A model generated the notes under the pieces. The model did not search any database and was not told the DNA's origin. It worked only from the letters and a program-made list of their open reading frames with translations. Position numbers and translations under genes: made by a program. Positions 1 to 48,533 of a stretch of DNA of 64,000 nt are shown here, piece after piece. Location: NCBI GenBank assembly GCA_036268875.1, contig DATATI010000087.1, positions 62,001 through 126,000 on the forward strand, read 5' to 3'. Source of the DNA: Polyangia bacterium. Lineage in GTDB: Bacteria; Myxococcota_A; Polyangia; Fen-1088. Position 1 is the first letter of the stretch, and every line of letters begins with the position of its first letter.

Positions 1-1597
1 TGATCTGATCGACCGGCACCCCCATTTGCGTGCCTTCGTCCACCAGACGGGCCATGGGCTGATTGGCGGCGACTTCGTCGTCACGGAACGACCACACGAA
101 GAGAAGATTACTGATGAGGCCATCGAGGAGAATGGCCCGCAAGAGGCGCAACCCGGCGGCGTCGATCCATTGCACATCGTCGAAGAACAGCACGAACGGC
201 TGGCCGAAGCGGCAAAACAACCGCACGAATCGCCGGAAGGTGGCGTTGAAACGGATCTGCGATTCTTCCGGATCAAGGGCGGGCACCGCCGGCTGCCCGC
301 CGATGATCGATTCCAGCTCGGGCACGATGTCAATGATCACCTGGCCGTTCGGTCCCACCGCTTCGAGGATCGAATGCCGCCAGCGAGCCAGGCTCTCGGC
401 GCTCTCGCTTTCAAGCTGGCGGATCAAATCGCGGAAGGCCTGGGTGAACGCCGCGTACGGGATGTTGCGGTTCAGCGCCTCGCACTTGCCGGCCACGAAG
501 AAGCCGCGGGTGGCGGCGATCGGTTTTTGGACTTCCTGCACCAACGCCGACTTGCCGATGCCCGACGGACCCGACACCAGCACCACCCGTTTGTCGCCGG
601 CGCTGGCCCGATCGAAGGCGCCGAGGATGATCTCGGTTTCGCGCTGCCGGCCGTAAAGCCGATGCGGAAGCTGAAAGCGGTCGGAAGCGTCGTTTTCGCC
701 CGGCGTGAAGACGGAGATGCGGCCCAGGTGCCGCAGTTCTTGCAGGCAGCGCCGCAGATCGGCGCTGAGGCCTCCGGTGCTCTGGTAACGCTCCTCCGGC
801 GTCTTGGCCAAGAGCTTGAGGACGATCGCGCACAGCGATTCGGGGATCTGCTCCCGGCGGGCAGGCGGGATCTGCGGCCGGCGCGCGATGTGGTCGTAGA
901 CCAGTTCCAGCGGATCGCGCGCCTCGAACACCGGCGCGCCCATCAACACCTCGAACAGGATCGCCCCCAGCGAATAAAAATCGCTGCGGTAATCGACCGG
1001 CCGGTTGATCCGTCCGGTTTGTTCGGGCGCGATGTAGCCCAGCGTTCCTTCCAGAGCGTTCGGCGCCACCACGTCCTGCGTCTCGCGGCCCACGCGCGAG
1101 GCGATTCCAAAGTCGATGATCTTCACCGACGACCGATCGGGCGCCACCAGGATGTTGCCGGGGTTCAGGTCCTTGTGAACGATCCCTTCCTGGTGAATGG
1201 CGCCCAGGCCCTCCAGCACCAGCAGGAACAGGGACAGCGTGCTTTGCAGGTCGGGCGGATCGGCGCGCGGCAGGGCGTGCAGCGGAACGCCCGGGTAATC
1301 GTCGAAGACCAGATAATGGCGCTGGTTCCGCTGCGAAAACTCCAGGGCCCGCGCGACGAATGGATGGTCGATGAGCTGGGTGATCTCGTATTCGTTGCGC
1401 AGGCGGGCGATCTGATCAGGCGTCGGGTACTCGGCGCGCAGGAACTTCAGGACCACGGGCGCACCATCGCTGATGCGCACGCCGCGATAGGCGATGGTGC
1501 GCGCGCCCTCGTCAACCGGCTCGTGGATCTCGTAGCCGCCGAGATTCGTGGCGGTGGGCGGCGGCGGCGGCTCCCCTCGGAGAGGGGACGTGGTCAC
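1..1597 (-). CDS. Ser/Thr protein kinase with AAA-type ATPase domain (partial)
   Basis: Reads leftwards from a GTG whose first bases overlap the stop of the aldehyde dehydrogenase gene (GTGA), so the two are probably translationally coupled; it runs off the left edge, leaving about 532 codons. The N-terminal 270 residues are a Hanks-type kinase: a Lys in VVLKFL, the catalytic loop HKDLNPGN, a DFG in IIDFGIA and GTLGYIAPEQ. After a linker comes a P-loop (SGPSGIGKSALV) and a Walker-B-like LFFDDVQWID, as in AAA_16/BREX-like ATPase modules. Family knowledge: such proteins commonly continue into GAF and histidine-kinase domains ('trifunctional' kinases of Myxococcota and Cyanobacteria); that part is not in the window. 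Likely a cytosolic signalling protein; its substrate is unknown. Confidence 0.9.
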   Translation of the reverse strand, partial: MTTSPLRGEPPPPPTATNLGGYEIHEPVDEGARTIAYRGVRISDGAPVVLKFLRAEYPTPDQIARLRNEYEITQLIDHPFVARALEFSQRNQRHYLVFDDYPGVPLHALPRADPPDLQSTLSLFLLVLEGLGAIHQEGIVHKDLNPGNILVAPDRSSVKIIDFGIASRVGRETQDVVAPNALEGTLGYIAPEQTGRINRPVDYRSDFYSLGAILFEVLMGAPVFEARDPLELVYDHIARRPQIPPARREQIPESLCAIVLKLLAKTPEERYQSTGGLSADLRRCLQELRHLGRISVFTPGENDASDRFQLPHRLYGRQRETEIILGAFDRASAGDKRVVLVSGPSGIGKSALVQEVQKPIAATRGFFVAGKCEALNRNIPYAAFTQAFRDLIRQLESESAESLARWRHSILEAVGPNGQVIIDIVPELESIIGGQPAVPALDPEESQIRFNATFRRFVRLFCRFGQPFVLFFDDVQWIDAAGLRLLRAILLDGLISNLLFVWSFRDDEVAANQPMARLVDEGTQMGVPVDQI

Positions 1598-35336: not shown

Positions 35337-36937
35337 CCGGTTCTTTCTTCGGCCCAGGTCGGGTGCAGGCGGCTGGCGACGGCGTTGTAGACGCGTAGTT
35401 CGTCGGTCTTGCCTTTGACCCGCACCGGCGGCAGCGGCACCGCCGAGATATGGGCGGCGACCTTGCGATAGGTGGCCTCCGACAAGATCACCTGACCGGA
35501 CTGCGCCACGCTGCACAGGCGCGAGGTGGTGTTCACGGCGTCGCCGATGGCGGTGTACTGCAGCGCGCGCGAGCTGCCGATGGCCCCGGTGACCACCGTG
35601 CCGGTGTTGATGCCGATGCCGATCTTGATCTCGTGCTGGCCCTCGGCCAGGCGGGTGCGGTTGAACTCGGACAGCACGCGCATCATGTCCAGCGCGCACT
35701 CGACGGCCTTGAGCTCGGGGTTGAGCAGCGGAACCGGGGCGCCGAAAAGGGCGATGATCTCGTCGCCCACGAACTTGTCCAGGGTGCCTTCGTGCTTGAA
35801 GATCACGTCGACCATCAGCTCGAAGTATTCGTTCAACATGCGGACGATCTCCTGCGGCGCCCGCGATTCGCTCATCGAGGTGAAGCCGCGGATGTCCGAG
35901 AAAAGCAGGGTGATCTCCGACAGGGCGCCGCCTTTTTCCAGCTGCAGTTTGCCCTGCACCACTTGATCGACCAGGTTCGGCGACAGCAAGCGCTGGAACT
36001 GCGCCCGCGTCTTCGCCTCCTGTTCAATGGCCCGCGCCAGGGTCGAATTGTGGATGGCCACCGCGGCCTGACTGGCCACGCCGCCGAAGATCTGCAGATC
36101 CTTCTCGGTGAAGGCGTTGGTGGCGATCATCGAATCCAGGTGCATGACGCCCAAGAGGTTGTCGTGGTGAAGCAGGGGAACGGTCATGGTCGACCGGATG
36201 CCCTGCATGATCACCGAGTGCGCGCCGGAGAACCGGCTGTCCATGGTGGCGTCCGACGACAGCACCGACGCCTTGTTGTTCACCACCTCGTTGATGATCG
36301 AGGTCGACAGGATGATCTGTTCGTTCTTGCCGTCGCGGGTCTTGGCCACCTTGGGGCGCGGCACGCCGTCTTCCATCAGCAAGATCACGCCCCGGTCAGC
36401 GGGCAGAAGGTCGAAGGCCTTCATGATGATCTTTTCCAGTAGCAGCTCGAGGTTGACCTCGAGGCCGATCGATCGCCCGAGTTCATTGGCCAGGCGCAGC
36501 TTCTCGTAGTCGCGCCGCAGGACCTCCACGTCGAAGATCTCCCGCTCGGGCAGGAACTCGCGCGAAGCCGGCGGGGCCTGGATCTTCTGGCGGATCAGCG
36601 CCTCGGTGGACGACGGGGCGATGGTCACCCGCTGCAGCAGGGCCTCGGACGCCGATCGTTCTTGAAATCTCAGCGACGTCGACCCCAGCATGATCTCGTC
36701 GCCGTCGCGCAGCAGGTGTTCGTTGACGCGTTCGCCGGCCAGGAACGAGCCGTTCAAGCTGCCGAGGTCGCGGAACAGAAACCGCCCGTCGGGCTGTCGA
36801 ATGATCTGGGCGTGCTCCTTTGACACGATGCGATCCAGGATCTGCAGCGTGTTGTCGGGGTGGCGGCCGACGGTGTTGATGCCTCCCAGCTCGTATTCAC
36901 GCTGCTGGTCGTTGCCGATGACAATGATCTTGGCCAT
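35333..36937 (-). CDS. FHA-GAF adenylate/guanylate cyclase
   Basis: 534 residues. The FHA domain (about 1-95) has the phosphothreonine-binding pattern VGRHPDNTL, VSKEHAQI and LGSLNGSF. The GAF domain (about 165-315) contains LLPADRGVILLMEDG. The class III cyclase domain (about 340-515) has both metal aspartates (LLFSDIRGFTSM and FVGDEIIALFGAP) and the transition-state pair in YTAIGDAVNTTSRL, so it should be active. It probably makes cAMP in response to a phosphoprotein and a GAF ligand. It converges with the Nfn-like gene, overlapping it by four bases. Confidence 0.93.
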   Translation of the reverse strand: MAKIIVIGNDQQREYELGGINTVGRHPDNTLQILDRIVSKEHAQIIRQPDGRFLFRDLGSLNGSFLAGERVNEHLLRDGDEIMLGSTSLRFQERSASEALLQRVTIAPSSTEALIRQKIQAPPASREFLPEREIFDVEVLRRDYEKLRLANELGRSIGLEVNLELLLEKIIMKAFDLLPADRGVILLMEDGVPRPKVAKTRDGKNEQIILSTSIINEVVNNKASVLSSDATMDSRFSGAHSVIMQGIRSTMTVPLLHHDNLLGVMHLDSMIATNAFTEKDLQIFGGVASQAAVAIHNSTLARAIEQEAKTRAQFQRLLSPNLVDQVVQGKLQLEKGGALSEITLLFSDIRGFTSMSESRAPQEIVRMLNEYFELMVDVIFKHEGTLDKFVGDEIIALFGAPVPLLNPELKAVECALDMMRVLSEFNRTRLAEGQHEIKIGIGINTGTVVTGAIGSSRALQYTAIGDAVNTTSRLCSVAQSGQVILSEATYRKVAAHISAVPLPPVRVKGKTDELRVYNAVASRLHPTWAEERTG

Positions 36938-37060
36938 GCCGGGCAGCCCGATCCCGGGATAATACCCCTAGACCCTGGTCGGGCGGCCGACATTCCGCGC
37001 CGGAACGTCACTTTTGGCGGACATTCCAGGGCCAATCAGCGGGGAGCATCGGGTAGACTC

Positions 37061-40000
37061 GTGACCCCCGTGAACTTGCTGACCCCCACGCCGGTCGTCT
37101 TAGGGTCTGAGACCGACGACGATCTGCTTGAGGTGATGACGCCGGCGCTGGAGGAGGCGCCCCCGCCACGGCCTGTCGAGATGACGCCGGCGGCGTGGGA
37201 GCGGGAGGTCGCCGCCATCGACGAGGAGGCCGAGGCGCGCGAGGGTGCGGCAGCGGGGGCGCTGCGATATGCAGCAGCACGCTTGCTGGAAGATCGCCTG
37301 GGCGACACCACCGCTGCGGTCGACCACCTGCACCTGGCGCTCGAATCGCCGGCCCGGGCGACGTTCCCGCCGGTGCTGCGCGCGCTGCGCGTGCACGCCC
37401 TCGAGGTGGGCAGCATCTGGTCGGCGGTCGATCTGCTGGACGTGGAGATCGAAGCGCGCGCCTCGGCCGGTGATCGGGCGGCGCTACTGGTGGAGAAGGC
37501 CTACCTGCTGGAGGATCGCTTGCTGGCGCCGCTGCCGGCCCGGCGCGCGCTGGAAGAAGCATTGCAGACAGCGCCGCACCACCGCGGCGCGCTGGTCGCC
37601 GCGCAAGCCATCGCCGAGCGCACGGCGGACGCCGCGTTCTTGCGTTCGGTGCTGGAACGCCGGCTGGCGGCGGCGCGGCTGCCGGCCGAACGGGCGCGTG
37701 TATTGTGCCGACTGGCGCTGCTCGCCGAAGCGGAGACCTCGCGCCTCGGCGAGGCGCTGACCCTGTTCGGGCGTTCGCTGGATGAAGACGCGCTGGGCGA
37801 CGCGGCGGCGGTGGCGCGCGCCGGTCTGCGCCGGGTGGGCGCGCGGGCCGGCAAGGACCTCGAGCTTCTACGCGGCATCTCGCTGGAGGCGGAAGCGGTG
37901 ACGGCCGGGCCGGCGCGGGCGGCCTGGCTGGCGGCGGCGGCCGCTCTGCACCGCTATCGTCTGGGCGCGGCCGAGCGCGCGGCGGCGGCGATCGATCAGG
38001 CGCTGGGTGACACGCCCGACGATCTGGCCCTGCTGGCCACGGCCTGCGACGACGACGCGGCGGCGGGGCGCTGGCCGCGCGTGCTGCAACTTTTGGATCA
38101 CCAGGCCCAGCTGACCAGCGATCCCGAATGGGCGGCGGCGCTGTTCAGCCTGGCCGGCACGGTCGCCGAACAACACTGCGGCGACGACGCGGCCGCGGCG
38201 GAACGGTTTCATCGCGTGCTCGGCACCCGGCCGCACAGCATGAGCGCGTTGCACGCCCTTGAACGCATCGCCGCCCGCACCGGCGACGCGGCGGCGCAGG
38301 CGTCGCTGGCGGTGGCGGCGGTCGGACGGGCGGCCGATCCCGCCGAGCGCGCGGCGCTGGCCCTGCGCGCCGCCGAACTGAACGAGACCGCGCTGCACGC
38401 TTTGCCCGAAGCGGCCGAGCTGGCCCGGCAAGCCCTGGACGCCGTGCCCGGCTATCCGCCGGCGTTGCACCTTTTGGAGCGGCTGTACCCGGCGCTTGAA
38501 CGCTGGGACGATCTGGTCGGCGTCATCGAAAGCGAAGTACAGGCCTTCGAGTCGGGGGCCGCGTCCGGCGCCGCGGTGACCGACAGCGACGACGCCGACG
38601 GCCGCCGGCTGGAGCGTCTGGGTCTGCTGCACGAAGAACGCCTGGGCGATCCCAGCCGCGCGATGGCCTTGTTCGCCGAGTGGGCCGATCGGGGCAAGCG
38701 GCGCGCGCCGGCTTTGCGGGCGCTGCTGCGCGCGGCGGAAAAAGCCGGCGACGCGCTGGTGGCCGCCGAGGCGGCGCTGCGCCTGGGCACCGAGATCGTC
38801 ACCGCCACCGACGACGAGCGGGTGGCCTGGCGGTTTCGCGCCGCCACCTTGTTCGAGGAGCGCGCCGCCGCTGACGGCGAGGCGATTCGCGCCTACGAAT
38901 CGGTGCTGGAGCTGGCGCCCTCGTTTCGGCCGGCGCTCGAAGGCCTGGCGCGCTCGCTGTACCGCCGCAAGAGCTTCGAGGGGCTGGCCGGTGTGCTGTC
39001 GCGCATGGCGGCCGGAACCAAAGCCGGTCCCCAAGCGAGCGCCCTGCAACTGGAGGCGGCGCGCGTGCAAGCCGAACTCTTGGGCCAACCGGAGGTGGCG
39101 CTGGGCTCGGTGAGCCGCGCGCTGTCGGCGGATCCGGCCAGCGTCGATGCCGCCGACTACTACGCCCGGCTGTTGCAGCGTCTCGGTCGCGTCGAGGAGC
39201 TGGGCGCGGCGCTGGGCGCGCTGGCCGAGCGCATCGGCGATCCGGCGGCCAAGGCGGGCACGTATCGCCGCCAGGCGGAAGTCTACGAATGGCAACTGCG
39301 CCGCCCGCGCGAGGCGCTGTTGATCATCGAACGCAGCCTGGGCGCCGGGGCGGCCGCCAGCGGAACCGCGAACCGCGCCGGGGTTTTGTCCACCGGGCGC
39401 CTGGCCGCACTTTTGGTGCAGGAGCGTTTGTTCCAGCTCCTCGGTCGCGGCGCCGACGTGGCGCAACTGCAGACGCGGCGCCTGGGCATTCCGCAAGGGC
39501 GCGCGGTCGAGGACGCCGCCCAGGGTTTGAACGGCGCGCGCATCGATCTGGCGCTGCGCTTGCCGGACGCCGAGCAAGGCGCGCTGCTGCTTGGTCGGGT
39601 GCTGGACGATGCACCGGGCGAGGTGCTGGCCCTGGAAATGCGGGTGGATATTTTGCGGCGCCTTGGCCGCGATCGCGAAGCGGGCGTGGCGCTGGAACGA
39701 CTGGCCGAGGTGACGCGCGAGCCAGAGGCGCGCCTGGCGTTGTGGCGGGCGGCCATCGCCGCGCGCGAACGCACCGGCGGTGCCGCCATCGAAGCGCTGC
39801 CCTTGTACGAACGGCTCGTCGAAGGCGATCCGGCCGCGGATGCTTTGGCCTTGTTCGAACGGTTGGCGGCGCGGCGGGGCGACTGGACGCGCGTGGTGCT
39901 GGCGCGGCGGACGCTGGCCGAACGGGCCAGCGCTGCCCAGGTGCGCGCGGCGCTGCTGTGGGAGCTGGGACTGGCCCGCGCCGAGACCGGCGATCTGGCG

Positions 40001-42208
40001 GCGGCGTGCGCCGATCTGGAAGCGGCGCTGGGCGCCGACCAGACGTTCTTGCCGGCGTTGGGCGCGCTGGCGCGTCTGCGCGAACGCCTGGGCGACGCGC
40101 GCGCGGCCGCCGAGCTGTACCGACTTGAGGCGCGTGCCAGCAAAAGCCCGGAGCGCGCCGCCGACTGTTTCCGCCAGGCGGCGCGCCTTTTCGCCAACGC
40201 GGTCCGCGACGATCAGGCGGCGGCGTCGTGCCTGGAAGATCTGCTGGCCCTGGATCCCGACGCCGAGGTCGACTTTCAAGTTCTGGAAGTCATCCTGCGC
40301 AACCGTCACGAAGAAGCGCGCCTGGTCGACGTCTTGCGCCGGCGCGCCGCCGCCGGCACCGGCGAAAAGCGGCGCGATCGCCTGTTGCACCTGGCCGGGT
40401 TGCTGCACGATCTGGGCGCCGTCGGCGACGCCGCCATTGCCCTGGGCGATGCGGTGCAGACGGATCCAACGTCGGTGGTGGCGCTGTTGCGCCTGGCCGA
40501 ATTGCTGGTCGAGCGCGGGCGGCCGACCGAAGCGGTGGAAAATTTCCGGCGGGCCATCGCCGCCTCGGCGGATCCGGACACGGTCAGCGCGGCGTGGATT
40601 CGCGTCGGCGAGATCGCGGCCGCCGAGCTCGGCGATCAAAAATTGGCCACCGCGGCCTATCAAAGCGCGCTGCTCTCGGCGCCCGACGACGTCAAGGCCC
40701 TGGGCGGTCTGGTGCGCGCCCTGGTCGGCCAGCACGAGCACACCGAGGCGGCGCAGGTCTGGCGCCACCTGGCCACCGTCGATCCGGATCGCGGGGCCGC
40801 GGTGGCGCACTGGGTGGCGCTGGGTGATCTGCTGGCCGGTCCGGCGGAAGATCCCGAGGCGGCGGCCGAAGCGCTGGAAGAAGCGCTGGCCCTGGATCCG
40901 GTGAACGACGCCGCGATTGATCGGCTGGATGGAATTCTTACTCACCTCGACGAGCCGTCGCGGTTGGCCGAGGCGCTGACGCGGTATCTGGAGATCGATC
41001 CCGCCTCCGCCGCCCGCCGGGTCCAACTGGCCGGTCTGTGGAGCGGCCCGCTGGTGTCGCCCCACCGGGCCATCGATGAACTGCGGGTGGTCCTGCGCAG
41101 CGCCCCCGAGGACGTGGCGGCGCGCGCCGAGCTGGCGCGCGTGCTGGAAGAAGCGTTCCGTCCGACCGAGGCGGTGTCCGAACACCTGGCTCTGCTGCGC
41201 ATCGATCCGCTGCGCTTGACGTCGATTCGCGCCCTGCGCCGGCTGTTCGAACGCACCGGCGAGCGCGATCGCGCCGACCGCGCCCTGGGCGTGCTGGTGG
41301 CGCTGGCGGCGGTGGATCCCGGCGAGGCCCGGGCGGTGCGCGAGGCGCGCCTGCGCTGGTCACCCGACCTGCGCAACCCGATCAGCAGCGTCGATTTCGA
41401 CGCCGTCATTCGCCACCCCGACGAGCACCACCCGGCGACCGCCCTGCTGGCGGCAATGGCCGAGGTGGTGCCGCGCCTTTACGGGGCCAGCATCGAGGAC
41501 TGGGGCGTCACCAAGGCCGATCGCCTGGGCGCGCGCTCGGAAGATCCGGTGCGGGGCACGGTGGCGGCGGTGTCCAGCGTGCTGGGCCTGGGCGACGGTG
41601 TCTTCGAGATCTACCTGGCGCGCACCGGCGTCACCCAGGTCGAGATCGACGCCACCCAGCCGCCTGCGCTGCTGCTGCCGGCGAACGTCGCCGCGCTGCC
41701 GCGGCAAGAATTGTTCGGACACCTCGGGCACAAGCTTGGTCGGCTGCGCGCCGGGACCCACGTGGCGGCGCGCATCCCCAGCAAAGAACTGGGTCTGGTG
41801 ATCGTCGCCGGCGTGCGCACCGTTTACCCCGACTACGGACGCGGGGCGCTGCCCGAGGATCGTCTGACCGACATGAGCCAGAAGATCGCCCGCGCGCTGC
41901 CGCGCCGCCACCGCCGGGCCTTCGAACAGGCGGCGCTGTCGTTCCGCGACGGTGGGGTGTTCGACAGCGATCGCTGGCGCGCCGGGTTGGCCCACACCGG
42001 CCAGCGCGCCGCCCTGCTGATCGCCGGCGACGTAGTCGGCGCCTTCGAACAGATCGTCCGCGTCGACCGCAACCTGGCCGGGGCTTCCGCTCGTGGCCCG
42101 GAGGATCTGCTGGCCGCCGCCCGCCTGAACATCGAAGCGGTCGAGATGATCAACTTCGCGCTCGGCGACGAACTGGCCGCCCTGAACGCCCGCCTGGCCG
42201 CGGGCTGA
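37061..42208 (+). CDS. Giant TPR-repeat protein
   Basis: About 1715 residues. An acidic, Pro-rich start is followed by some 1400 residues of Ala/Leu/Arg-rich helical repeats of TPR/SEL1 type, for example LGDTTAAVDHLHLALESP, LLEDRLLAPLPARRALEEAL and LGDQKLATAAYQSALLSAP. The last 300 residues form a different domain (YGASIEDWGVTKADRLGAR, VFEIYLARTGVTQVEID, LFGHLGHKLGRLRAGTH) that I know only as a conserved C-terminal module of myxobacterial TPR proteins. No signal peptide or membrane helix is visible. The start may be GTG at 37061 or 37070; neither has a good ribosome binding site. Probably a scaffold. Confidence 0.85.
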   Translation: MTPVNLLTPTPVVLGSETDDDLLEVMTPALEEAPPPRPVEMTPAAWEREVAAIDEEAEAREGAAAGALRYAAARLLEDRLGDTTAAVDHLHLALESPARATFPPVLRALRVHALEVGSIWSAVDLLDVEIEARASAGDRAALLVEKAYLLEDRLLAPLPARRALEEALQTAPHHRGALVAAQAIAERTADAAFLRSVLERRLAAARLPAERARVLCRLALLAEAETSRLGEALTLFGRSLDEDALGDAAAVARAGLRRVGARAGKDLELLRGISLEAEAVTAGPARAAWLAAAAALHRYRLGAAERAAAAIDQALGDTPDDLALLATACDDDAAAGRWPRVLQLLDHQAQLTSDPEWAAALFSLAGTVAEQHCGDDAAAAERFHRVLGTRPHSMSALHALERIAARTGDAAAQASLAVAAVGRAADPAERAALALRAAELNETALHALPEAAELARQALDAVPGYPPALHLLERLYPALERWDDLVGVIESEVQAFESGAASGAAVTDSDDADGRRLERLGLLHEERLGDPSRAMALFAEWADRGKRRAPALRALLRAAEKAGDALVAAEAALRLGTEIVTATDDERVAWRFRAATLFEERAAADGEAIRAYESVLELAPSFRPALEGLARSLYRRKSFEGLAGVLSRMAAGTKAGPQASALQLEAARVQAELLGQPEVALGSVSRALSADPASVDAADYYARLLQRLGRVEELGAALGALAERIGDPAAKAGTYRRQAEVYEWQLRRPREALLIIERSLGAGAAASGTANRAGVLSTGRLAALLVQERLFQLLGRGADVAQLQTRRLGIPQGRAVEDAAQGLNGARIDLALRLPDAEQGALLLGRVLDDAPGEVLALEMRVDILRRLGRDREAGVALERLAEVTREPEARLALWRAAIAARERTGGAAIEALPLYERLVEGDPAADALALFERLAARRGDWTRVVLARRTLAERASAAQVRAALLWELGLARAETGDLAAACADLEAALGADQTFLPALGALARLRERLGDARAAAELYRLEARASKSPERAADCFRQAARLFANAVRDDQAAASCLEDLLALDPDAEVDFQVLEVILRNRHEEARLVDVLRRRAAAGTGEKRRDRLLHLAGLLHDLGAVGDAAIALGDAVQTDPTSVVALLRLAELLVERGRPTEAVENFRRAIAASADPDTVSAAWIRVGEIAAAELGDQKLATAAYQSALLSAPDDVKALGGLVRALVGQHEHTEAAQVWRHLATVDPDRGAAVAHWVALGDLLAGPAEDPEAAAEALEEALALDPVNDAAIDRLDGILTHLDEPSRLAEALTRYLEIDPASAARRVQLAGLWSGPLVSPHRAIDELRVVLRSAPEDVAARAELARVLEEAFRPTEAVSEHLALLRIDPLRLTSIRALRRLFERTGERDRADRALGVLVALAAVDPGEARAVREARLRWSPDLRNPISSVDFDAVIRHPDEHHPATALLAAMAEVVPRLYGASIEDWGVTKADRLGARSEDPVRGTVAAVSSVLGLGDGVFEIYLARTGVTQVEIDATQPPALLLPANVAALPRQELFGHLGHKLGRLRAGTHVAARIPSKELGLVIVAGVRTVYPDYGRGALPEDRLTDMSQKIARALPRRHRRAFEQAALSFRDGGVFDSDRWRAGLAHTGQRAALLIAGDVVGAFEQIVRVDRNLAGASARGPEDLLAAARLNIEAVEMINFALGDELAALNARLAAG

Positions 42209-42220
42209 CCGCCGCCGCCG

Positions 42221-42628
42221 TCACCACTCGACGCGGGCGGCGTCGGTTTCGACCTTGGGGTTCATGTCGAGGTCGTAGGTCTTGTCGACGCCTTTGAGGC
42301 TGAGGGTGGCTTTGTAGCGAGCCTCGACGGAGATGTTCTTGGCGCGGGTGACGAGGACCTGCAGCTTCGGGTCGGTGACGCCGATTTTTTTCAGCGATTC
42401 GACCAGCTCGTCGTGGATGCGGGCGATGCCTTCGGTGGAGGTCGGTTCGGGCAGCAGGTTCGCCTTGTAGGCGCGCGGGAGCGCTTCGCCGAGTTCGTTC
42501 TTCACGTTGCCACTGAGCGCGATGAGCGGCCAGGCGCTGATGCCCAGCCAGGCGGCGGCGCCCAGGAACAAGAACAGCGTCACCGACACGGCGTTCAGGC
42601 GCCTCGGCTGCTTGTAGTGGGTCGCCAC
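42221..42628 (-). CDS. Small membrane-anchored protein of unknown function
   Basis: 135 residues. A basic N-terminus precedes one membrane helix (about 14-38, VSVTLFLFLGAAAWLGISAWPLIAL). The soluble part (about 60-135) alternates helix and strand and ends SLKGVDKTYDLDMNPK. No family recognised. It is the last gene of the leftward set with the UPF0104-type protein (11 bases upstream) and the pseudokinase. Confidence 0.7.
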   Translation of the reverse strand: MATHYKQPRRLNAVSVTLFLFLGAAAWLGISAWPLIALSGNVKNELGEALPRAYKANLLPEPTSTEGIARIHDELVESLKKIGVTDPKLQVLVTRAKNISVEARYKATLSLKGVDKTYDLDMNPKVETDAARVEW

Positions 42629-42639
42629 GCGACCTCAGG

Positions 42640-43599
42640 TTAACGTTGCGGCGCGTTCGCGTCAAAAGCCTGGGCGGTGTCGGCGGCGTGCGAGGCGGTG
42701 CGCAGCTCGCGGCCGGCGCGGCTGCGCAGACAGGCCAGGCCCACCACCACCTGACAGGTCAGGGCCAGCACTTGATTGACCAGGCTGGCGGCCAGCACGG
42801 CGGCATCTTGAGCGGTCTTGTCGCCCGGGGCATAGCGGGCAAAAAAGAAAACCATCGCCGCTTGCGTGGTGCCGAGACCCTGCACGGAGATCGGAAGCAC
42901 GCTGATGAAGAACACCACCGGCAGACAGACGATCGCCTGCACCAGCGGCACCGCCACGCCGAAGGCGCGCAGGGCGGCGGTCTGAAACGCCACCAGCGCG
43001 GCGATGTGCGGCAGCCGGACCAGCAACGCTTTCAGGTGACCGCCGAGGCCCGCGGACAGCAGCACGTCGAAGATCGGCCGCTGGGCCAGCCAGCGCGGGC
43101 GGGCCACCACCACGGCGATGTACACCAGCAAGCCGGCATAGGCGGCGGTGATGATCACCCGCAAGCTGGGCGGCGCCTGGGGCGCGAACACAAGGCCGCC
43201 GCTGGTCAGAAGCAGCAGGGCCAGCACGTTCACGCCCATGATCAAAAGGACGGTGGCCACCCCGCGCATCACCGGCACGCCGCGCGCGCGGTTGACGAAA
43301 TAGATGATCGCGCCCTGGCCGACGTTGTAGTTCACGGCGGCCAGCAAGTAGGTGGCGCCACGAACCAGCAAGATCTGCCCGAAGGAAAACGGCGCCAGGA
43401 ACCAGCCGAAGGTCTTCCACATGGCGAACGAGTCGCCGAGGTAGACGCAGCCGAACAGCAGCACGGCCACCGGCACGGTCCAGGGTGCGGCGGCGCGGGT
43501 GGCGTGCCAGACGTCGGCGAACGGCGTGCGCCAGAACAGCCAGCCCAGCAGACCGAGGGTGATGATCCAGGCCGCCGCCTTGGCCAGCTTGCCGCGCAT
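42640..43599 (-). CDS. LPG_synthase_TM (UPF0104) family integral membrane protein
   Basis: 319 residues from an internal ATG with about eight membrane helices. Family landmarks are AAVNYNVGQGAIIYFV near the middle and VVFFISVLPISVQGLGTTQAAMVFFF towards the end. The family includes the flippase half of lysyl-phosphatidylglycerol synthase and many stand-alone proteins thought to move lipids or lipid-linked sugars. No aminoacyl-transferase domain is fused. It lies 26 bases after a kinase-like gene, which may regulate it. Confidence 0.82.
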   Translation of the reverse strand: MRGKLAKAAAWIITLGLLGWLFWRTPFADVWHATRAAAPWTVPVAVLLFGCVYLGDSFAMWKTFGWFLAPFSFGQILLVRGATYLLAAVNYNVGQGAIIYFVNRARGVPVMRGVATVLLIMGVNVLALLLLTSGGLVFAPQAPPSLRVIITAAYAGLLVYIAVVVARPRWLAQRPIFDVLLSAGLGGHLKALLVRLPHIAALVAFQTAALRAFGVAVPLVQAIVCLPVVFFISVLPISVQGLGTTQAAMVFFFARYAPGDKTAQDAAVLAASLVNQVLALTCQVVVGLACLRSRAGRELRTASHAADTAQAFDANAPQR

Positions 43600-43625
43600 A
43601 AGAAGGAAGGCCGTCGGTTCGGGGG

Positions 43626-44678
43626 TTAAAAGCCGTGCAGGGCGGCGTAGGTGGCGATGGCGGCGGCGCAGGAGAGGGCGGCGATCACCGTGGCCTTGGC
43701 CAGGCGGGTGGCGGGTGGTTTGTTGGGGGCGGCGCGGCGGTCGTCGTCGCGGCCCACCACGCCCTCGGCGGCGAAGGCGATCAGGCGGCGGCTGGCGCTG
43801 CGGCACTGCTCGACGGCGACAGCCAGGTCAGCGACGGTGGTGTAACGACGGTCAGGATCTTTTTCCAGCGCCCGCATCACCACGCCGTCGATGTCGGCGC
43901 CGATGTCGAGATCGGGCCGGCGCGTGCGCATCGGCAGCGGCGAGTCTTGAATGTGTTTATTGATGACGTCGACGACGGAGCGTCCTTCGAAGGGCGGCGT
44001 GCCGGTCAGCATCTCGTACAGCAGGCAGCCGAGAGAATAGATGTCGGCGCGGTGATCCGCCGCCTGCGCCAGCGCCACCTCGGGCGCGACGTAGGCGGGC
44101 GCGCTGCAAAGCTGGCCCGAGCCGGTCTCGCCTTCCTCCAGCGCGGCGGTGGTCAGCGTGGCGACGCCGAAGTTCAGCAGCTTGACGAAGTCGCGCGTGC
44201 CGTTGCGGCCGGTGAGGAAGATGTTTTCCGGTTTGAGATCGCGGTGGACGATGCGGTGTTCGTGCACCGGTCCGAGCGCGGCGCAAAGCTGGCGCACGAT
44301 GGCCTTGGCCCGCCCGAGCGGCAGCGGCCCTTCGCGGCCCAGCAGCGCGCGCAGGTTCTCGCCTTCCAGGTACGCGGTGGCGACGAAGACAAAGTCGTCG
44401 GGGGACTGGCCGCAGCAGAAGATCTCGACGATGTTCTCGTGGCCGATGCGGGCGATGGTGCGGGCCTGGTCCAGGAAAGCGCGCAGCACGTCGGGGCGCC
44501 GCACCTCGGGCAGGATGATCTGCAGGGCGACGTTGCGATTGACCAGTAGGTGCTCGGCGAAGTAGAGGCCGGCGATGCCCGGCTGGCCAAGCTTGCGGAT
44601 GATGCGGTAGCGGTCGGAGACCACGCGTCCGATCAGCGAGTCAGGCGTGCGAAGAAAGTGCGGGTGTCGATGCTGCAT
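43626..44678 (-). CDS. Ser/Thr protein kinase homologue lacking catalytic residues (pseudokinase)
   Basis: 350 residues: a kinase fold to about 310, then a basic linker and a C-terminal membrane helix (AKATVIAALSCAAAIATYAAL). The fold is clear (HRIVHRDLKPENIFL, YVAPEV, DIYSLGCLLYEML, DPDRRYTTVADLA). However, the ATP-anchoring Lys of VAxK is Gln53 (NVALQIIL), the helix-C Glu is Gln71 (FLDQARTI), and the DFG Asp is Asn169 (LLNFG). The glycine loop is also atypical (GQPGIAG). Phosphotransfer is therefore unlikely. ATG is chosen over an upstream TTG. Confidence 0.88.
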   Translation of the reverse strand: MQHRHPHFLRTPDSLIGRVVSDRYRIIRKLGQPGIAGLYFAEHLLVNRNVALQIILPEVRRPDVLRAFLDQARTIARIGHENIVEIFCCGQSPDDFVFVATAYLEGENLRALLGREGPLPLGRAKAIVRQLCAALGPVHEHRIVHRDLKPENIFLTGRNGTRDFVKLLNFGVATLTTAALEEGETGSGQLCSAPAYVAPEVALAQAADHRADIYSLGCLLYEMLTGTPPFEGRSVVDVINKHIQDSPLPMRTRRPDLDIGADIDGVVMRALEKDPDRRYTTVADLAVAVEQCRSASRRLIAFAAEGVVGRDDDRRAAPNKPPATRLAKATVIAALSCAAAIATYAALHGF

Positions 44679-44794: not shown

Positions 44795-47700
44795 TCAGGG
44801 AGCGGGGGTCAGACGCGACGTCGGGATGACGACGAAGTCGTTGGTATTGCCGTCAGTATCGCTGGTATTGCTGCTCCACAGAAGATGGACCTTAGCGTTG
44901 CCAGTGTTCTCGAAATATTCGAGCCGTATGGAGACCGGTTGGTTCGCCGTTAAGTTGACGGCGCCCGACGTGAATCGTAGATCGCCCCCCTTCAAGGTCT
45001 CTTGGGCGATGATCGGGTTCACCAAGTCCTTGACCCATAACGATACGCCATCATCGCTGAAGGTTTGGAAGAAGAACGTGCCGGACGCCGTCGACGTCAG
45101 GGTGCCGGTCCAACGAGCGGTGAAGCCGTCGTTGGGGAAGGCGACGTCGGCGGTTGACGGATCGGTGTTGCTTAAGAAAGCTGCGCCCGGCGTGAATGGG
45201 GAACTGCCTCCAAATTCGAAGTCGATGTTTCCGTCGACCCGAGTGTGAGTCGGGGTGCCGCTCCAGGTCGGTGTGTTGATGTCACTGAGCTTGAAGTAAT
45301 CGCCTTTGAGTCCGCCGCAGAGTGCGCCGAAGCACTTGTTCGTGCCAGCGCAGTCGTTGTCGGTCGCGCAGTTTTTGAGGCAGCCGGTGGTGTTGCAGGT
45401 GTAGTCGCCGCACGATGTCCCGGTTGCCGTTTGGCAGGTGTGGGCGCTACAGGTGCGCGCCGGCGTGAACGTCGAGCCAGAGCACATCGCGCCGACGCAC
45501 GGAGTCCCGTCGGCGTAGAACTGGCAGGCGCCCGAACCGTTGCAAGAGCCGTTGGTGCCGCAGGTCGCCATGCCCTGATCCATGCACTGACCGGCCACCG
45601 CCGGCGACTGGCCGGCCGTCACGTTCTTGCAGGTGCCGACGCTGTTGGTGATGTTGCACGATACGCAGGTGCCGTTGCAGGCGGTGTCGCAGCACACGTT
45701 CTGAGGCGAGCAGAAGGTGGACACGCACTCGACGCCGCTGCCGCAGGTCTGGCCGTTCGACTTGCCGCCGCCGCAGGCGCCGTTGATGCACGTGCTGGGT
45801 GAGACGCAATCGGTGTTGCTGGTGCAGGTGGTCTTGCACATGGCGTTTGTATCGCACGCGAACGGCTTGCACGACGTCGACGAGCCGGTCACGCAAGCGC
45901 CCGAACCGTTGCAGGTGCTGATACCGACGACGTTGGCGTTGGTGCAGGTCGCGGGGCCGCAGGTGAGGCCCGAGGCGTATTGCTCGCAGTTGCCGGCGCC
46001 GTCGCACAGGCCGTCGTGCTTGCAGCTGGTCTGGCCGTCGTCGGTGCAAGCGCCGGCCGAGCTGCCGTGCGCCGGCACGTTGATGCAAGCTCCAGCCTTG
46101 CCGGGCACCGCGCACGACCGACAGGTGCCGGTGCAGGAGCTGGCGCAGCACACGCCTTGCTGGCAGAAGCCCGACGCGCACTGATCGTCGCTGCTGCAGG
46201 TGGTGGCGATGTCTTTCTTGCGGCACACGCCGCCGATGCAGACGTTGGGGCTGGTGCACTGGTTGTCGGCCGTGCAGCTCTGGCGGCACATGTTGGTGGC
46301 GGTGTCGCACTGGAAGGCCTGGCAGCTGGAGGTGCTGGCGGTCGTGCAGACGCCGACGCCGTCGCAGCTGCGCGCCGGCGTGAGGGTCGAGCCCACGCAG
46401 CTGGCCGGGGCGCACTGGGTGGATCCGTTGTACAGGCGGCAGGCGCCCTTGCCGTTGCAAAGACCGTCGGTTCCGCAGGAAGCGGCGCCCTTGTCCATGC
46501 ACGTGCCTTGCGGATCGGCGGCGCCATTCAGCACCGCCGAGCAGGTGCCGACGCTGCCGGACACCGCGCACGACATGCAGGTCCCGGTGCAGGCCGAATT
46601 GCAGCAGAAGCCTTGGGCACAGAAGCCTGAGCCGCACTCGCTGTTGCCGGCGCAGGCGCCGCCGATCGGTCGCTTGCCGCAGCTGGCGTTCACACAGACG
46701 TTGCTGGCGCTGCATTCAGTATTGATGGTGCAGGTCATGTTGCACGCTCCGCCGCTGGCCGCGCAGGAGTAAGGGGCGCAGTCCTGCTGGGTACCGGCGA
46801 CGCACGCGCCGCCACCGTTGCAGCGACTGGCCAGGGTCTGCGTGGCGCCGCTGCAAGCACCCGGGCCGCAGACGGTGCCGCTGACGTAAAGCTGGCACGC
46901 GCCGTTGCCGTCGCACCTCCCGTTGGTGCCGCAGCCGTTGGCGCCGGTATCCGCGCACTGGCTTAGCGGATCCTGGCCGGGAGGCACCGGCGTGCAGGTG
47001 CCGGCGAACCCGGCCAGATTGCAGGCGCGGCAGCCGCCGGTGCACGAACGGTTGCAGCAGACGCCCTGCTGGCAGAAGCCGGTGGCGCATTCGGGGTTGG
47101 CCAGGCAGGCGGCCCCGGCCGATTTCTTCACGCACGTGCCGCCGATGCAGACGAAATCGGTGCCGCAATCGCTGGATGAGGTGCACGCCGACAAGCAAGT
47201 GCCGCTGGCGCCACAGGCGAAGGGTTCGCAGGGGCGGGTGGCGCCGGCCAGGCAGGTGCCGTTGCCGTCGCAACGGCGGCTGCCACTCTCGGTGCCGGCG
47301 CTGCAGCTGGTGGCCGCGCACACGGTACTGGAAGGGTATTTGCGGCAGGCGCCGGCGCCGTTGCAGGTTCCGTCGGTGCCGCAGGTGGCGGCGCCGTTGT
47401 CGGCGCACTGGCCCAGCGGATCTTGGCCGGCGGGCACGGTCGAACAGGTGCCGGCCGTGCCGGGCAGCGCGCACGACTTGCAAACACCGTCGCAGGCGGT
47501 GCCGCAGCAGGTGCCTTGCTCGCAGAAGGCCGAGTTGCACTGGTCAGCGGTGGTGCAGGCGCTGCCCAGGGGCTTCTTGCCGCAGCTGCCAGCCACGCAG
47601 GTGTTCGGCGACGAGCAGTCCGCGTCGGTCTTGCAGGTGGTGCGGCACATCAGGACAGTGGCGTCGCAGGTGAACGGCGCGCACGACTGGGAAGCGGTGG

Positions 47701-48304
47701 GGACGCAGGCGCCGCTGCCGTCGCAGCGGGAGACCAGGTTCATGGTCGATCCGCTGCAGGTGGAGGCCAGGCAGGTCACGCCGGCCGGATATTTGCGGCA
47801 AGCTCCAGCGCCGTCGCAGGCGCCGTCGGTCCCGCAGCTGGCCAGGCCCTGGTCGGGGCACATGTCGCGCGGGTCGGTCCCGATCTCGGCCGGGGTGCAG
47901 GTGCCGACGCTGCCGCTGACCGCGCAAGAAAAGCAGGCGCCGTCGCAGGCCTGGCTGCAGCACACGCCGTCGACGCAGAATCCGCTGCGACATTGATCGG
48001 CGCTGGTGCAGGAGATGCCCAGGGTCTTGCGCGGATCCACCGGGGGAGCGCCGCTTGCGTCGGGGTCCTGGCCGCCGTCGTCGTTCGTTCCCGGCGGTAC
48101 GTCCGTCGTCATTGCGCCGCCGTTTCCTGAAGCGACGTCGGCGGCCACGTCGGTGCCCGGCGCGGCGATGTCGGTGCCGCTGTCCGTGCCGCCCGGCTTG
48201 GCGCCGGAGCCGGCGCACGACGAGAGCAACCACGCCAGCCCCAGGAGTGGCATCCAGCGAGTCCTTGAGAGGTCCTTCGAATTGTAAAAGGCGCCGCTGC
48301 TCAT
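44795..48304 (-). CDS. Large Cys-rich repeat lipoprotein with C-terminal PA14 domain
   Basis: 1169 residues. A lipobox-type signal (LLGLAWLLSSC) is followed by an Asp/Gly/Thr-rich linker. Six tandem units of about 150 residues then follow, each with the order QCxSGFC, GVCC, SCAxxGxxGTC, CGTxGxCxGxGACR, CxP and CGKK. The last 150 residues are a PA14-like beta-barrel (LKGDYFKLSDINTPTWSG, GFTARWTGTLTSTASGTFFF, FSDDGVSLWVKD). Such Cys repeats are disulfide-rich adhesin or stalk modules in myxobacteria; PA14 domains often bind glycans. Met39 is an alternative start. Divergent from the PEGA gene. Confidence 0.85.
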   Translation of the reverse strand: MSSGAFYNSKDLSRTRWMPLLGLAWLLSSCAGSGAKPGGTDSGTDIAAPGTDVAADVASGNGGAMTTDVPPGTNDDGGQDPDASGAPPVDPRKTLGISCTSADQCRSGFCVDGVCCSQACDGACFSCAVSGSVGTCTPAEIGTDPRDMCPDQGLASCGTDGACDGAGACRKYPAGVTCLASTCSGSTMNLVSRCDGSGACVPTASQSCAPFTCDATVLMCRTTCKTDADCSSPNTCVAGSCGKKPLGSACTTADQCNSAFCEQGTCCGTACDGVCKSCALPGTAGTCSTVPAGQDPLGQCADNGAATCGTDGTCNGAGACRKYPSSTVCAATSCSAGTESGSRRCDGNGTCLAGATRPCEPFACGASGTCLSACTSSSDCGTDFVCIGGTCVKKSAGAACLANPECATGFCQQGVCCNRSCTGGCRACNLAGFAGTCTPVPPGQDPLSQCADTGANGCGTNGRCDGNGACQLYVSGTVCGPGACSGATQTLASRCNGGGACVAGTQQDCAPYSCAASGGACNMTCTINTECSASNVCVNASCGKRPIGGACAGNSECGSGFCAQGFCCNSACTGTCMSCAVSGSVGTCSAVLNGAADPQGTCMDKGAASCGTDGLCNGKGACRLYNGSTQCAPASCVGSTLTPARSCDGVGVCTTASTSSCQAFQCDTATNMCRQSCTADNQCTSPNVCIGGVCRKKDIATTCSSDDQCASGFCQQGVCCASSCTGTCRSCAVPGKAGACINVPAHGSSAGACTDDGQTSCKHDGLCDGAGNCEQYASGLTCGPATCTNANVVGISTCNGSGACVTGSSTSCKPFACDTNAMCKTTCTSNTDCVSPSTCINGACGGGKSNGQTCGSGVECVSTFCSPQNVCCDTACNGTCVSCNITNSVGTCKNVTAGQSPAVAGQCMDQGMATCGTNGSCNGSGACQFYADGTPCVGAMCSGSTFTPARTCSAHTCQTATGTSCGDYTCNTTGCLKNCATDNDCAGTNKCFGALCGGLKGDYFKLSDINTPTWSGTPTHTRVDGNIDFEFGGSSPFTPGAAFLSNTDPSTADVAFPNDGFTARWTGTLTSTASGTFFFQTFSDDGVSLWVKDLVNPIIAQETLKGGDLRFTSGAVNLTANQPVSIRLEYFENTGNAKVHLLWSSNTSDTDGNTNDFVVIPTSRLTPAP

Positions 48305-48533
48305 TCCTTGCCTTGGAAACGGGGGAGAGAGTCGAGACAATAACAGCCGGGCGGCGATCAAGACCAATGAAAGCCGCGGGATCTCATAGAACTTTGTAAC
48401 GCAGAACCCCGTTGACTGGTCGCTCCCAGTCCGTTCGGGGATCGGCCGGGAGATTTCTTATGTTAACGCCTCGCCAGGACGGCCAGTGCGGATGGGCCAG
48501 ACCGGCCGGATAGTGTGATAAGAAGAGGCCCTT

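Follow-up and report, generated by a model that had tools for sequence, protein, structure and literature searches.

The open reading frame on the reverse strand at 43626–44678 of the window (the whole stretch of 64,000 nucleotides analysed here) probably encodes a lineage-specific, catalytically dead, PknB-like paralogue of the myxobacterial Ser/Thr kinases, which the cell would keep for binding without catalysis on the inner side of its cytoplasmic membrane. The protein has lost the ATP-positioning Lys-Glu pair, the Mg-binding Asp, and two glycines of the Gly loop, and it keeps the kinase fold and the residues of the regulatory spine. The initial annotation had the frame, coordinates, and strand of this gene right, and the ATG at 44678 is a start consistent with where the closest canonical kinases begin. 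The product matches Pfam Pkinase (PF00069) with an E value of 9e-40 (137 bits vs a gathering threshold of 31.7), and among proteins of solved structure it is closest to M. tuberculosis PknB and S. aureus Stk1, with approximately 32–34% identity. Membership in the PknB PASTA kinase family (NF033483) was rejected because the protein scores 237 bits vs a curated threshold of 450, matching in the kinase part only. The features discussed below are collected in Table 1.

Table 1. Positions of the pseudokinase, its neighbours in the window, and further kinase-like domains encoded in this genome that have lost catalytic residues.
Feature	Position	Strand	Remarks
Hanks-type pseudokinase (350 aa); motifs GQPGIA / VALQ / LDQAR / HRDLKPEN / NFG / APE	43626..44678	-	Pfam, alignment, model
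C-terminal hydrophobic helix, residues 329–347, predicted tail anchor	43638..43694	-	mean hydropathy 1.89 over 19 aa
UPF0104 / LPG_synthase_TM (PF03706) membrane protein	42640..43605	-	above Pfam cut-off; family-conserved
135-aa single-TM protein, no Pfam family	42221..42628	-	conserved UPF0104 partner in family
FHA-GAF-nucleotide cyclase	35339..36937	-	after UPF0104-small pair in most relatives; here TPR gene (other strand) between
Cys-rich protein of similar repeat blocks, C-terminal PA14 domain	44795..48367	-	co-directional, upstream of kinase
Catalytic-residue-losing kinase-like domain, same genome	L166:2-3082	-	
Catalytic-residue-losing kinase-like domain, same genome	L214:785-2662	+	
Catalytic-residue-losing kinase-like domain, same genome	L226:1432-3270	+	
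Catalytic-residue-losing kinase-like domain, same genome	L233:1180-2754	+	
Catalytic-residue-losing kinase-like domain, same genome	L234:1261-3333	+	

Residues were compared on an HMM-anchored alignment that brought together 204 kinase domains, taken from this genome, from related genomes, and from GTDB loci. All three substitutions described in the initial annotation were borne out by this alignment. The beta3 Lys of the VAxK motif is Gln (Q53) in a column that holds Lys in 196 of 197 filled rows, with Gln in the pseudokinase only; the helix-C Glu is Gln (Q71) where 196 of 198 rows have Glu; and the DFG Asp is Asn (N169) where 196 of 199 rows have Asp. The combination of Q53, Q71, and N169 occurs in this one domain out of 204. 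The Asp of HRD (D147) is kept, as also described before, and so are N171, the Glu of APE, D220, and R280, together with the spine residues F170, H145, and D212. There are further losses beyond those first noted. In the Gly loop, G52 is replaced by P33, which is unique among the 204 domains, and G55 by A36; the gatekeeper Met has become Thr, the hinge Glu has become Ala, and the Gly-Thr of the P+1 loop has become Ser-Ala. Where the ATP shell is assigned by us from PKA numbering, 9 of its 14 highly conserved columns deviate in the pseudokinase vs 5 of 26 elsewhere (Fisher p 0.006). When a pseudokinase is defined as a domain lacking at least one of the beta3 Lys, HRD Asp, and DFG Asp, Q53 and N169 place the protein in this class. 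The sequence thus strongly supports the pseudokinase reading, and the protein would not be expected to transfer phosphate.

An active enzyme that works by a non-canonical route, such as metal-independent or WNK-like phosphotransfer, AMPylation, or glutamylation, seems extremely unlikely to us. The complete HRDLKPEN loop is consistent with such an activity, and SelO and SidJ are pseudokinase folds with other activities (PMC12599244). However, both of these retain a Lys and a DFG-type Asp at the corresponding places (PMC12599244, Table 1). In the protein described here the DFG Asp is lost, the Gly loop contains a Pro, no alternative Lys or Arg that could rescue ATP binding in a WNK- or DYD-like way was found in beta2 or the Gly loop, and there is no Arg in beta3.

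The protein also does not belong to the bacterial pseudokinase families with which we compared it. The DYD family is marked by a beta3 Arg and a DYD motif, and the DLHK family by three Arg in the active site and the absence of a TM (PMC12599244). Both resemble our protein in having altered ATP- and metal-binding motifs, and DLHK also keeps the HRD Asp. We rejected membership in DYD because of the beta3 Gln and the NFG motif, and membership in DLHK, which needs arginines in beta2 and the catalytic loop and no TM, because of the predicted C-terminal TM helix and a beta2 with no Arg or Lys. The initial annotation drew a parallel to MviN, FhaA, and CwlM of mycobacteria, which holds as an analogy only. 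CwlM is an amidase homologue and not a pseudokinase. In M. tuberculosis the pseudokinase domain forms part of the MviN protein and belongs to the ActPs3 family, which has VALT and neither HRD nor DFG (PMC12599244). Our protein is likewise a membrane-linked bacterial pseudokinase, and a binding role is suggested by that analogy; however, it is a separate protein, it keeps HRD, and its VALQ, HRDLKPEN, and NFG motifs led us to reject membership in ActPs3.

The divergence of the pseudokinase from its canonical relatives differs between regions of the domain and is greatest in the N-lobe and the activation segment. From beta3 to alphaC the identity of the pseudokinase to canonical relatives is 0.38–0.47, compared with 0.71–0.88 among the canonical kinases, and in the activation segment it is 0.28–0.41 compared with 0.69–0.91. 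By contrast, the region from the catalytic loop to beta8 is little changed (0.62–0.77 vs 0.62–0.85 among canonical kinases), and helices F–I are modestly lower (0.36–0.47 vs 0.43–0.74). This regional pattern is what would be expected of a fold kept for binding, and not of uniform decay. AlphaFold2 gave a confident kinase core (mostly pLDDT >85) with a disordered activation loop at residues 171–190; a structure match of this model returned PknB on top with the full bilobal fold, where the input alignment consisted of active kinases and biases the model toward a kinase fold. The C-terminal helix was predicted with low confidence and falls where the tail is most hydrophobic.

As a comparison, Hanks kinases of the PknB/Stk1 type (M. 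tuberculosis PknB, PDB 3ORM/1O6Y) share with the pseudokinase the whole kinase fold and a membrane helix that follows the kinase domain. They differ in that the pseudokinase lacks the Lys, the Glu, the DFG Asp, and two Gly-loop glycines, and has no PASTA or other extracytoplasmic domain. The L002 group, made up of a canonical paralogue from this genome and the orthologues of that paralogue, is 41–46% identical to the pseudokinase. Common to both are a similar N-terminal lead-in (DxLxGxVxSDRYRI), the motifs GQSP and RRPDLDI, and a hydrophobic segment that follows the kinase domain. The group differs in having intact catalytic residues, in evolving slowly, and in carrying at its C-terminus a long region rich in Pro and Ala, which ends near ELKNPF and is absent from the pseudokinase. 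We dropped a sister placement with this group, which is nearest by identity, because the long branch of the pseudokinase leaves the trees unsettled.

These observations suggest how the protein might act. With its Gln-Gln pair and its Asn, the domain may stay in a closed, active-like shape while lacking the charges required by ATP-Mg, and the single C-terminal helix would tether the protein to the membrane. There it could dock one of the cell's own active kinases through a PknB-type N-lobe contact, or a kinase substrate through the C-lobe. The 86 domains of the genome with all three key residues intact would offer ample possible partners. The partner need not be the neighbouring UPF0104 protein.

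We then consider whether the gene has been kept by selection. Searches of 17 other family genomes, 317 class genomes, and 377 genomes sampled across the phylum (the class and phylum sets overlap), and of plasmids, found no orthologue. The best matches in the searched genomes were at most 46% identical and came mostly from one slow-evolving canonical orthogroup. The terminal branch of the pseudokinase, at 2.3–2.4 changes per column, is the longest in the trees, and its position is not fixed. With no orthologue and so long a branch, the gene may be young and on its way out. A functionless, recently inactivated duplicate that is decaying under relaxed selection is, in our judgement, possible if rather doubtful. 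It agrees with the singleton status and the branch length, with the codons at the three key sites (CAG, CAG, and AAC), each one base from a Lys, Glu, or Asp codon, and with the kept HRD Asp and catalytic-loop Lys and Asn, which are also what a recently dead kinase shows. Against decay, there are at least five separate active-site changes, the changes cluster in the ATP site and activation segment and are not evenly spread, the frame is intact, and codon bias is strong. Codon usage of the gene is 0.487, near the best of the kinases in this genome (median 0.40, maximum 0.53). When neutral drift was simulated from the closest paralogue to 46% identity, ignoring indels, the domain stayed free of stops in 2% of runs, which rejects neutral drift across the whole branch and not across its last part. 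The open frame and codon bias indirectly favour constraint through most of the history of the gene, and not necessarily after the last change. The earlier claim that the fold is under selection without phosphotransfer thus gains indirect support from an intact frame at 46% identity, region-specific relaxation, and normal codon usage.

The initial annotation placed the kinase at the head of a leftward set of three genes and held plausible a regulatory binding role like that of the MviN/FhaA-linked pseudokinases of mycobacteria. On this view the protein would regulate the adjacent UPF0104 lipid-transport-like protein in the way that the MviN pseudokinase domain recruits FhaA. The order with the PF03706 gene and the small TM gene is real, and first place is uncertain since the PA14-domain gene, which has the same orientation, is located 116 bp upstream. 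The gap between these two genes has one weak terminator-like match, in a region with three such matches vs 2.1 expected. This PA14-domain gene was not found beside the UPF0104 gene in relatives. The likely ATG of the UPF0104 gene is near 43598, approximately 27 bp past the kinase stop, and no promoter-like site was found in this gap in a scan that covered the sigma-70 type only. Co-transcription is therefore plausible from this one genome, and it would not be evidence of shared function.

Regulation of the UPF0104 protein seems quite unlikely to us, even with the short gap, the predicted membrane helix in the pseudokinase, and an FHA protein in the same neighbourhood. All 17 other family genomes have the UPF0104 gene, and none has a kinase at this spot, where the upstream genes vary. 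No UPF0104 homologue was found near the kinase loci examined. These data argue against a functional operon of the two genes, the order of which is not kept. The small gene adjoins UPF0104 in most of the 17 genomes, where contig ends or divergence may hide the remainder, and its product has 12 invariant positions over 12 relatives. The FHA-GAF-cyclase gene comes directly after the UPF0104-small pair in most relatives, and it associates with this pair and not with the kinase. Because relatives keep UPF0104 and, in most cases, the small gene and the FHA-cyclase without a kinase there, the conserved unit is made of these genes and the kinase is a lineage addition. Together UPF0104, the small gene, and the FHA-cyclase look like a conserved module in most family members. 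We know of no description of this module, and the literature on PF03706/UPF0104 gave no direct lead. In relatives, FHA-GAF-cyclase loci were seen at L157:5798-7405 and in L149, L151, L152, and L154–L156. The intervening gene in the window (36860–42208, forward strand) encodes a very long TPR-repeat protein (up to 1782 aa), which lies on the opposite strand beside UPF0104 in two other family genera as well. We regard as highly improbable the more specific proposal of a neutral-amide pseudokinase (Lys to Gln, Glu to Gln, and Asp to Asn, with a Gln-Gln pair that keeps an active-like shape) placed before this module to control membrane lipid transport.

The genome that carries this gene belongs to the Myxococcota, as its relatives indicate, and is rich in kinases. 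It has 104 kinase matches and approximately 90 protein-kinase genes; the kinase census was made from individual stretches. A second kinase domain lies in the window itself, in a long open reading frame near its start (713–1456, reverse strand), and is not listed as having lost key residues. In the alignment, five other domains of the genome lack at least one of the beta3 Lys, HRD Asp, and DFG Asp, so pseudokinases are an ordinary category in this genome (about six of roughly 90). In M. xanthus, 11 of 99 Ser/Thr kinases are pseudokinases, several of them developmentally regulated (PMC6791715); these belong to the same phylum and are likened to our protein by category, not by individual sequence. 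The set of charge-neutral replacements is distinctive, yet this is no new kind of protein. Myxococcota have very large Ser/Thr kinomes, in which pseudokinases with no assigned role make up as much as a tenth. With its near-canonical scaffold, charge-neutralised active site, and small size, the protein described here is a clean case, and it might be used to test in a simple way whether the pseudokinases of myxobacteria dock to active kinases.
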